Of a stretch of 64,000 nt of DNA, positions 43,722-46,904 are shown one piece after another. The stretch comes from Hydrotalea sp. (GTDB taxonomy: Bacteria > Bacteroidota > Bacteroidia > Chitinophagales > Chitinophagaceae). The DNA lies in contig JAKRSC010000024.1 of assembly GCA_022402565.1 (NCBI GenBank), forward strand, positions 294,042 to 358,041, read 5' to 3'. The notes under the pieces are model-generated. The model saw only the letters and a list, made by a program, of their open reading frames with translations, was not told the origin of the DNA and did not search any database. A program made the position numbers and the translations under genes. Within the stretch, counting starts at the first letter, position 1. Each line of letters starts with the position of its first letter.

Positions 43722-44150
43722 CTATTTCCAAAAATCCTGAAATGACGGTTCATTCCAAATGATTTCTAAATCAGCCGTCTTAATTGGTTTCACCAAATAA
43801 TCAATAACATTTTTGTATTTGGATGCGTTTTGACGATCTACTTGATCAGTAGAAGAACTTACAACTACAACTTGAACGGTTTCCTTATAAAGCTTTGTGT
43901 CTAATTGATCAAGAAACTGCCAACCATCGCATATAGGCATATTAATATCTAAAAGAACAAGTGCGCGCATATCAGAAGTCCCTACTTTATCCAAAAGATC
44001 TAATGCTTCTTGTCCATTCTTGGCTGCAAGCAACTCAACATTCCATTGAAGCTTTTGAATCAGCTTTTGATGCAACAATTGAAAGATTGGATCATCTTCT
44101 ACTAAAAGAATATATCGTGTGGCAGCATGTTGCATTATATGTGTGTTCAT
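43722..44150 (-). CDS. Single-domain response regulator (CheY-like)
   Basis: 142 residues, receiver domain only. Acidic pocket Asp19-Asp20 (LVEDDPIF), phospho-acceptor Asp68 (VLLDINMP), Ser/Thr in VVSSSTD and Lys in YLVKPIKTADL are all present. There is no output domain. It starts 21 bases after the PAS/GAF gene stop and is cotranscribed with it, so it is the natural partner of that DHp-ending protein. It may act by protein-protein contact or as a phosphate shuttle. Confidence 0.92.
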   Translation of the reverse strand: MNTHIMQHAATRYILLVEDDPIFQLLHQKLIQKLQWNVELLAAKNGQEALDLLDKVGTSDMRALVLLDINMPICDGWQFLDQLDTKLYKETVQVVVVSSSTDQVDRQNASKYKNVIDYLVKPIKTADLEIIWNEPSFQDFWK

Positions 44151-44171
44151 ACCTTCTCTAAATTAATTGAT

Positions 44172-46904
44172 TTAATTGCGGAGTTTATTATTTTTAATAT
44201 CCTGCGCCTTATTTGTAATTGTCTGAATTATCATATCTAATTCATGAGCACTTGACTCAATCAATTTAATCCAGTCCTCTATTTCATCTGGCTTCAACTC
44301 TTTCAACTGATCAACAATGCCCATTAACCTAGCCAAAGGTGCACGCACAATATGAGACTGTGTCCATGCAATATCTTGAAGTGCTTTATTCTGCAACTCA
44401 ACTGTTCTGAAATATTGATTTCGTTCTGTTACGTCAATCACAATCTCATGTACTATTTGTCTGCCCTCTGAAATAATAGATGCAAAGGAAGCATAGATTT
44501 CTTTTACCTCTCCACTAGCATTTCTATGTTTCAAATCGAGGGTTTTGATTTTTCCAGATAGAATTGCATTTAAAAACCCAAAAATCTCTTCTTTGGTATT
44601 TGATACATTAATATCCCAAATAAACATATTTGCCAGTTGCTCCTTAGTAAATCCATAAAACCTTTCAAAAGCAGGATTTACATCAATATACCTTCCAGTT
44701 TCAGGATCAAGTAAGCACATAGGCGACATATTTTTATTGAATATATCTTTAAACCTTGCTTCGCTTTCTTCTAATTTTTTCGTTGCTCTTCTTTGCTCTG
44801 TTACATCTATTCCAACACATTGCATTTCTGTTGGGTTACCTTTATCATCAGTCAAACAGACAAATTCCCATAATGTAGTTCGAATGTTTCCATGATCATC
44901 AGGTTTATCTAATTCAACTTGAACCACCTTACCTGGCTCTGATAAACAAGAATGAACAGTTTCAATAGTTCTCTGATGATGGTAGTCACATATAGATGCT
45001 AGAACAGCTTCTTTGTTTTCATCATTTAGCTTCTTTACGTACGAGAAGTCCTCTTCAAAAGTTTTGTTCCAATAAGTATATGAACCAGTTAAATTAGTTC
45101 TAATAATATAACTGGTTTGCGTTTCAATGATACTCCTTAAACGCTGCTCGTTCATGGCTAATTGAATAGCATCTTTCTTACTTTGTGTAATGTCTTGAAA
45201 AGTGGCAAATACCCTAAACGGTTTTGTATCTCCATTTTTAAATTCGGGCATGGCACTTATCAGAATCCAAACATGTTGCTTTTTCAAGGGATGATAAACT
45301 CCCATTTCAACATTGTATACTGGCTTCCCAGTTTTTAGTGCAATCATAGCGGGATGTTGATCGCCGGGGAGTACATGAAACTCACTATCAATAGCACTCC
45401 ACTCTGTATCCATACTATCTTTACCCAACAATTGATTTCTGGTCAAACCTAGTAAATTAAGGGCGGCTTCATTCGCTTGTATAATTTTTCCATGTGCGTC
45501 TTGATATACAACTCCTTGAGCCATTGTATCAAAGAGATTTTTGAAATCTCTATCCTGTTCTTGAATTTTCTCAACATGCGATTTTCTTTGCAATGTATTT
45601 CCAATGATCTCAGATAATACTTGCATCAATTCTATTTCTTTGAAAGTAAAAATGCGCTTTACACGTACTGAATCAAGTCCAACTATTCCTACAATTTTAT
45701 CTTCTAATTTAATTGGAACCAACACAAACGATTGAATTTGTTGGGCACTTAAATGGCCAAACATTTCTACATTGCGTTTCAAAGAGTTGATATCTGGAAT
45801 ATGAATAATATCACCTACAGAGTTTTGATGCAACATGCCTCTGTACAAATCTATTGGCACATTTTGTAAATTTTCCTTTTGGATTGATATACCTTCTGCA
45901 CACCATTCAAAAGTGTTATTCATCAATATATGCTCTTCATCAAATTGAAAAATGTACACACGATCAACATGTAATACACTCCCAACCTGCCCCAACATAT
46001 CATTAATAGACTGCTCAATAGAATCTAAGGAAATATCAATAAAATCAGTTCCTAATTTGGTTAATAGGTTTCTAAATTCTTGTTCAATATAAGAAGCTGT
46101 AATATCTGCAACAATACCGGTAATTTTTTTCTCGCCACTTACAGACTCATTAAACATCATTTTCATTTCCAACCATTTCAAACTACCTATAGGAGTCACT
46201 AATTTGAAAATGATTTCTGAATCTTTTAACTCGCCTTTCTTTAGTAAACTAAATTGTTCTTCAACAAATGCTCTGTCATCAGGTTCTACCATTTGCAACC
46301 AATCTTGAAAAGAAATATTGTCACTTTTACTTTCGCAATCCATTATGGAATACATCTCATTCGACCAAAACATGGTTGGATTGCCAATATTCTTAGTCCA
46401 AAATCCAAATTGCTGTAACTGTTGAACATGTTTCAGCATTCCTTTGTAATCAATGTCATCCATTGATTCATTACTAATCTTTTCAACATTAAACGTATCA
46501 ATCATCTCAACAACAGCATATTCAAGCTCTTCATGTAAAAGCAATCGAACAGAAGCAGTACATTCAAGAACAATTTGTTGACCCCTGACAATTAGTTTTC
46601 CAAAGTTTGAGGATTTTTCTAGTAAGCTTGTTCTTACTTCTTCACTTCTGATATGCGCAAAAAAACTTTCTTCAAAAATTTCATTTGCATTTAATGTTTT
46701 GAAATCTGTTTTTGGAAGACCTAGTTTAGTTAAGAGTGAGAAATTTGCAAAAAGAATGGCGCCATCAGATAATTTAAATAAAAGTACCATGCCTGGCAAT
46801 TGCTCCAAGATGTTCGATCTTTTCTCAAAAATCCATTCCGCATGTGTAGATTTATACAAAAAGTAGATTAATTTAATATGCGCAATTACATTAAAAATCT
46901 GCAA
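44172..46904 (-). CDS. Multi-PAS/GAF protein ending in a DHp-like domain, no catalytic domain
   Basis: 910 residues, no membrane helix. In order: PAS-like (~30-140), PAS (~160-275, WSNEMYSIMDCESKS), GAF (~280-445, VYIFQFDEEHI, SFVLVPIKLEDKIVGIVGLDS), PAS (~455-575), PAS (~585-705), PAS (~720-835), then a helix pair with His851 in AWTQSHIVRAPLARLMG, like the histidine-containing DHp of kinases. The protein stops 59 residues later, with no ATP-binding domain. The start is a TTG; no ATG exists before the first PAS. It is followed by a receiver gene. It may be a phosphotransfer or dimerisation scaffold, or need a kinase encoded elsewhere. Confidence 0.82.
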   Translation of the reverse strand: MQIFNVIAHIKLIYFLYKSTHAEWIFEKRSNILEQLPGMVLLFKLSDGAILFANFSLLTKLGLPKTDFKTLNANEIFEESFFAHIRSEEVRTSLLEKSSNFGKLIVRGQQIVLECTASVRLLLHEELEYAVVEMIDTFNVEKISNESMDDIDYKGMLKHVQQLQQFGFWTKNIGNPTMFWSNEMYSIMDCESKSDNISFQDWLQMVEPDDRAFVEEQFSLLKKGELKDSEIIFKLVTPIGSLKWLEMKMMFNESVSGEKKITGIVADITASYIEQEFRNLLTKLGTDFIDISLDSIEQSINDMLGQVGSVLHVDRVYIFQFDEEHILMNNTFEWCAEGISIQKENLQNVPIDLYRGMLHQNSVGDIIHIPDINSLKRNVEMFGHLSAQQIQSFVLVPIKLEDKIVGIVGLDSVRVKRIFTFKEIELMQVLSEIIGNTLQRKSHVEKIQEQDRDFKNLFDTMAQGVVYQDAHGKIIQANEAALNLLGLTRNQLLGKDSMDTEWSAIDSEFHVLPGDQHPAMIALKTGKPVYNVEMGVYHPLKKQHVWILISAMPEFKNGDTKPFRVFATFQDITQSKKDAIQLAMNEQRLRSIIETQTSYIIRTNLTGSYTYWNKTFEEDFSYVKKLNDENKEAVLASICDYHHQRTIETVHSCLSEPGKVVQVELDKPDDHGNIRTTLWEFVCLTDDKGNPTEMQCVGIDVTEQRRATKKLEESEARFKDIFNKNMSPMCLLDPETGRYIDVNPAFERFYGFTKEQLANMFIWDINVSNTKEEIFGFLNAILSGKIKTLDLKHRNASGEVKEIYASFASIISEGRQIVHEIVIDVTERNQYFRTVELQNKALQDIAWTQSHIVRAPLARLMGIVDQLKELKPDEIEDWIKLIESSAHELDMIIQTITNKAQDIKNNKLRN

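Follow-up and report, generated by a model that had tools for sequence, protein, structure and literature searches.

The window, that is, the whole stretch of 64,000 nucleotides that was analysed, carries on its minus strand a gene for a multi-domain sensor protein, which ends in a HisKA-like DHp hairpin, and directly downstream of it a gene for a lone receiver. The features of this locus are as follows:

44172..46904, minus strand: PAS/GAF/DHp sensor protein without catalytic (CA) domain, 910 aa from TTG at 46904, 872 aa if read from ATG at 46790
Residues 41-85 of the sensor: very weak N-terminal PAS (Pfam E 0.075)
46137..46373, minus strand (residues 178-256): PAS (Pfam PAS_3, 33.7 bits)
45591..46013, minus strand (residues 298-438): GAF (Pfam GAF, 40.1 bits)
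45183..45515, minus strand (residues 464-574): PAS (Pfam PAS_9, 42.7 bits)
44802..45143, minus strand (residues 588-701): probable PAS, below cut-off (Pfam PAS, E 0.0014)
44424..44720, minus strand (residues 729-827): PAS adjoining the DHp (Pfam PAS_9, 40.3 bits; AlphaFold2 model)
44175..44402, minus strand (residues 835-910): HisKA-like DHp hairpin, C-terminal, with no CA domain after it
44352..44354, minus strand: codon of His851, predicted phospho-acceptor, with Ile as the next residue and Ala at His+4
44151..44171: gap of 21 bp between sensor stop and receiver start
43722..44150, minus strand: lone receiver, 142 aa, with the acidic pair, Asp68, Ser and Lys of the active site
43947..43949, minus strand: codon of Asp68, predicted phosphorylation site of the receiver

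The layout of the two genes had been described in a sequence-only reading of the locus and is borne out by the open reading frames of the window: the histidine motif is followed by a stop 59 residues on, and the receiver begins 21 bp downstream. The start of the sensor gene is ambiguous between the two codons given above and other TTGs, and the numbering of His851 is therefore uncertain. Five PAS domains and a GAF domain had been proposed, of which the GAF domain is clear and three PAS domains exceed the Pfam cut-off, the remaining two being borderline and, at the N-terminus, very weak. The same reading held that no catalytic domain is encoded and called for a profile search; this search was run and agrees with it, returning no HATPase_c match in the sensor (Pfam, E ≤ 1), and a frameshifted CA domain is ruled out by space, since the distance from stop to receiver is only 21 bp. 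The receiver is a single-domain response regulator with a complete set of active-site residues, and no complete kinase gene lies next to the sensor gene.

The HisKA profile scores 14.5 bits at residues 850-896 of the whole protein and 21.2 bits when the 76-aa C-terminus is searched alone, both under the Pfam cut-off of 26.9 bits, and it matches all 23 members of the family described below (E ≤ 10; best 8.8e-10). An Hpt domain (PF01627) was considered and rejected, since Pfam lists it neither for the window protein nor among the 25 of 28 families displayed for the 23 members. In the AlphaFold2 model of the PAS-DHp portion (mean pLDDT 95.4), the segment after His851 forms the remainder of alpha1 and the alpha2 of the hairpin, with no degenerate CA-like domain. 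The top Foldseek matches of this model are PAS domains and LOV-histidine kinases, including YF1 (4gcz) and SB2F1 (8a52); the latter kinases align over about 207 columns with a query TM of 0.49-0.56 and an rmsd of 6.8-9.7, so that the domain angles differ.

The hairpin is of a type found in Bacteroidota HisKA-like DHps, with the family motif QSHxVRxPL. Two further proteins of the same genome end just past the same hairpin, namely a PAS protein with a CA-less DHp end at 374 kb of contig C17 and, at 110 kb of contig C30 (L239:6630-7217, plus strand), a protein of 195 aa which, from a reading of its translation, has apparent transmembrane segments, followed by a coil and the CA-less DHp end. Scanning the genome contigs with the whole sensor gave eight loci, matching mostly the PAS/GAF parts. 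A DHp match at E ≤ 1e-5 is present in 42 of the 147 genomes of the taxonomic family; 30 of the 122 matches came with a locus, and 40 more regions cover about 41 of the other 92. None of the 32 loci first read, which include three from the own genome and one (L101) that ends at a contig end, encodes a same-frame HATPase after the DHp. In a sample of the phylum, a 23-sequence profile matches 134 of 395 genomes at E ≤ 1e-8, the weaker matches including ordinary kinases, and reaches a best value of E ≤ 1e-17 in at least 34 of the 395 genomes from at least nine families among the matches listed. The 60 regions taken from this sample were likewise drawn from the matches listed, those at E of about 1e-8 to 1e-12 being hardly represented in the reading. 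Among 147 distinct DHp instances, from loci chosen by DHp similarity, mostly best first and not at random, 137 lack a HATPase, nine have one and one is cut by a contig end; the best HATPase-bearing instance has an E of 4.5e-17, and 131 of the CA-less ones score better.

The CA-less design recurs in many related bacteria and is not a local accident. Whether the truncation is confined to one strain had been named as a point to check; it is common to many relatives, and the shared end point rules out a strain-specific truncation or frameshift. No sign was found that an ordinary kinase gene had recently been truncated here or misread in sequencing. At most, this explanation could draw on the two congeneric genomes, neither of which has a receiver close to that of the window (best identity 36-38%). 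It is extremely improbable, given that relatives from nine or more families end at the identical point and that the receiver begins 21 bp on.

Split kinases, in which a separate CA protein completes the DHp in trans, are known (PMC3591291). For the window sensor such an arrangement is very unlikely: no HATPase ORF directly follows the DHp at any of the 155 loci where there is space for one, and the own genome has 32 HATPase_c matches at E ≤ 1, of which 29 exceed the cut-off and some may not be kinases, all in frames of at least 268 aa. These counts led to the rejection of a kinase split between the sensor gene and a CA gene beside it.

The residues of the hairpin bear on what it could still do. 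The histidine is kept in 136 of 137 CA-less DHps, as are Arg at +3 (137/137), Pro at +5 (133/137) and an Asp in alpha2 (136/137). The sole member without the histidine, L172, has Tyr in its place, and a second CA-less DHp is encoded in the same locus. The alpha2 Asp occurs in only two of nine HATPase-bearing relatives and, in a larger set, in 153/157 CA-less against 6/41 HATPase rows, the latter being the kinases in the loci at hand and not a random kinase set, and one of the former (L193_2) being really a kinase with its HATPase in another frame. In this larger set, the residue after the histidine is D, E or N in 38/157 CA-less rows as compared with 41/41 HATPase rows (Fisher p 1e-20), D or E in 35/157 CA-less rows, and Ile in the window; T or N at His+4, where the window has Ala, is found in 2/157 CA-less rows. 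An acid at His+1 jointly with Thr/Asn is present in 0/157 CA-less and 10/41 HATPase rows. In CrdS, HK853 and others, the acid after the histidine is needed for autokinase activity only and the Asn/Thr for phosphatase activity only, the CrdS variant N375A having lost phosphatase activity while retaining phosphotransfer (PMC3510030). For the family, the residue-level predictions are no autokinase activity, weak or no phosphatase activity, and competent transfer.

A dedicated phosphatase, which would use water to dephosphorylate the receiver, was among the roles that the sequence-only reading had offered. The possibility has been raised for archaeal HisKA proteins without HATPase (PMC5847659), and CA-deleted HK853 is reported to be active as a phosphatase at pH 8 (PMC7005713). 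This role is nevertheless improbable for the window sensor because the Thr/Asn it needs is Ala there and T or N in only 2/157 rows, and a change of this residue inactivates CrdS as a phosphatase (N375A; PMC3510030); the argument is the weaker one of those drawn from the residues, since 16/41 HATPase kinases likewise have Ala at +4.

The pairing of the hairpin with a receiver recurs as well. Among 136 CA-less DHps with room, 19 have a lone receiver directly downstream; among the 313 remaining ORFs of these loci, 4 do (p 1.5e-7). These 19 comprise 10 of the 22 DHps with an N-terminal receiver domain (REC) and 9 of the 114 without, the other 105 of the 114 having no linked lone receiver. A tree built from 84 receivers over 124 columns, with a bootstrap that had not fully converged, places the window receiver in a clade of 24 rows (support 100/99). 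Its other members are the 18 remaining DHp-downstream receivers, four receivers found after complete kinases and an orphan from the own genome. The receivers located between a kinase and a REC-PAS-DHp gene form a separate clade of 14 rows (100/99), and 18 of 20 N-terminal RECs form a separate clade of their own. Viewed from the receiver side, the best BLAST hit assigns 38 of 60 receivers to the window type. Of these 38, 13 stand after a CA-less DHp and another 13 after a HATPase kinase, two are fused to a CA-less DHp and 10 are none of these. The clade is therefore a normal kinase partner, and the CA-less DHps share in that partnership; an exclusive association with CA-less partners was tested and did not hold, members also following complete kinases. 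The orphan (L237:8602-9069, plus strand; C21:158644-159027) has no kinase or DHp beside it, its neighbours being recX-like and dnaN-like genes, as named from their translations. At two other loci, L283 and L284, a CA-less DHp gene that includes a REC (661 and 664 aa) precedes a tandem pair of lone receivers.

Docking would suffice to account for adjacent and fused receivers, and the DHp could then be a non-phosphorylated scaffold which merely dimerises the sensor and docks its receiver. We regard this as quite unlikely, since it leaves unexplained both the near-invariant histidine (136/137) and the retention of Asp and Lys in 18/18 of the remaining receivers downstream of such DHps, 17 of which also have the acidic pair.

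A further arrangement is provided by REC-(PAS)-DHp proteins, of which 25 under 400 aa were collected. The sequence upstream is long enough for 23, and 22 of these are immediately preceded by a HATPase kinase on the same strand, while in 18 a lone receiver stands just upstream of the REC-(PAS)-DHp gene, between it and the kinase. A receiver follows in 10, leaving 13 without this last receiver, and all three elements (kinase, intermediate receiver and last receiver) are found in eight. The operons thus hold His, Asp and His, with a further Asp in 10, a layout that is compatible with a receiver-to-receiver phosphate relay as far as the gene order can indicate. In one member (L191), REC is joined to the DHp without a PAS between (model pLDDT 90, pTM 0.73). 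The kinase upstream of another operon (L193:2-2785) is split over two frames, with the DHp first and the HATPase after it. At four further loci (L261, L262, L263, L265), a lone receiver has downstream of it a REC-PAS protein of 473-483 aa with a C-terminal HATPase; these four proteins are possible CA-bearing relatives of the REC-PAS-DHp proteins.

The main rival to a phosphotransfer role is heterodimerisation, in which the CA-less DHp would pair with the DHp of a complete kinase in the way RetS pairs with GacS, thereby blocking it or being trans-phosphorylated by its CA domain. When the family profile is run against the PDB, its two best matches, and thus the closest solved DHps by sequence, are the GacS chains 7n0e_A and 7z8n_A, followed by 3a0r and ZraS and only then by the RetS chains 7n0e_B and 6dk7 (chain identities from PMC12148439); RetS works by a DHp heterodimer, in which it replaces the homodimer interface of GacS (PMC12148439), and a complete kinase adjoins 22/23 of the REC-(PAS)-DHp genes. 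Trans-phosphorylation, however, should keep the acid at His+1, which most CA-less DHps have lost, the neighbouring kinases with a profile-detected DHp carry another DHp type (e.g. SHDLQEPL), and the window gene is without an adjacent kinase. Heterodimerisation is thus unlikely for the window sensor.

Direct fusions of DHp and receiver also occur. In a protein of 1100 aa at locus L291, the receiver follows the DHp with no CA domain between, and it matches the window-receiver clade best. The window gene pair aligns across this DHp-receiver piece with 40% identity (residues 1-212 of 219, E 9.6e-39) and is its third best match in 395 genomes in a search that read through stops. Two more divergent fusions are L309 and L325. 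A FastTree phylogeny of 198 DHps, computed on 71 columns and with local support values only, unites 151 CA-less DHps in a single group (support 94), within which the window DHp adjoins the L291 fusion (81). Outside it stand the L309 and L325 fusions, three further CA-less sequences and L193_2, the kinase with its HATPase in another frame, so that, judging from this tree, CA loss may have occurred more than once.

Because the design recurs, the histidine is nearly always intact and a receiver is sometimes paired or fused, window-type proteins probably pass or drain phosphate rather than make it. On balance, and with modest confidence, we favour the reading that the window sensor is a sensor-controlled, CA-less histidine phosphotransferase, which relays phosphate to its receiver or drains it. 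A transfer hub, a phosphatase and a scaffold had all been put forward for it at the outset; the retained histidine, the complete receiver active sites, the operons and the fusion favour the first, the Ala at +4 makes the second less likely, and the third in its pure form does not explain why the histidine is conserved. In the favoured reading, the PAS/GAF domains would feed into, and presumably gate, a putatively dimeric DHp bundle, which would be unable to autophosphorylate. His851, if phosphorylated, would exchange phosphate with a receiver Asp, the putative donor being a phosphorylated receiver or a hybrid kinase elsewhere in the cell; the own genome has 32 receiver matches and two Hpt matches. 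Phosphate could then be passed from His851 to Asp68 of the neighbouring receiver, or the receiver could be drained the opposite way, the sequence being compatible with a flow in either direction.

Extended to the family, this suggests, more tentatively and at somewhat less than an even chance, a large Bacteroidota class of sensory phosphotransfer valves, which would gate the flow of phosphate between receivers and generate none. It is a similarly tentative proposal that PAS/GAF or REC inputs act in them on a CA-freed DHp that relays to, or drains, the partner receiver clade. If true, such sensors would control where phosphate goes instead of producing it, and compact test systems are at hand in the fused DHp-receiver, the kinase/receiver/REC-PAS-DHp/receiver operon and the sensor-receiver pair of the window.

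In Spo0B and ChpT, a degenerate CA-like domain follows the DHp. Together with PhyT, these kinase-derived proteins relay phosphate between receivers via a phospho-His, which is the likeness proposed here, and PhyT, at first regarded as a phosphatase, turned out to transfer phosphate from one receiver to another (PMC5898713; for ChpT see PMC3433190). PhyT has a degenerate ATPase domain (PMC5898713), whereas the window gene ends at alpha2 of the DHp, and the window protein differs from all three in its several sensor domains and in having no CA remnant. HisKA proteins without HATPase have already been described in archaea, where they are mostly misannotated as kinases, are termed 'possible incomplete histidine kinase' in P2CS, and have had their role left open (PMC5847659). 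Like the window protein, they have N-terminal PAS/GAF domains and a C-terminal HisKA-like domain with its histidine, and REC-PAS/GAF-HisKA variants exist there too (PMC5847659). Unlike the archaeal set, the Bacteroidota family has its own motif, has mostly lost the His+1 acid, is partnered by a clade of receivers, occurs in operons with kinases and includes a fusion of DHp and receiver. This Bacteroidota lineage looks new, in that no open-access paper on such a family was recognised from titles and the starts of abstracts, a search in which subscription papers may have been missed. Compared with a HisKA sensor kinase, the window protein retains the DHp with its histidine and lacks both HATPase_c and the His+1 acid. 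Its pairing with a receiver resembles that of HisKA kinases with single-domain regulators: receivers of the same clade follow complete kinases such as those of L227 and L231-L233, the window pair differing in having no CA domain.
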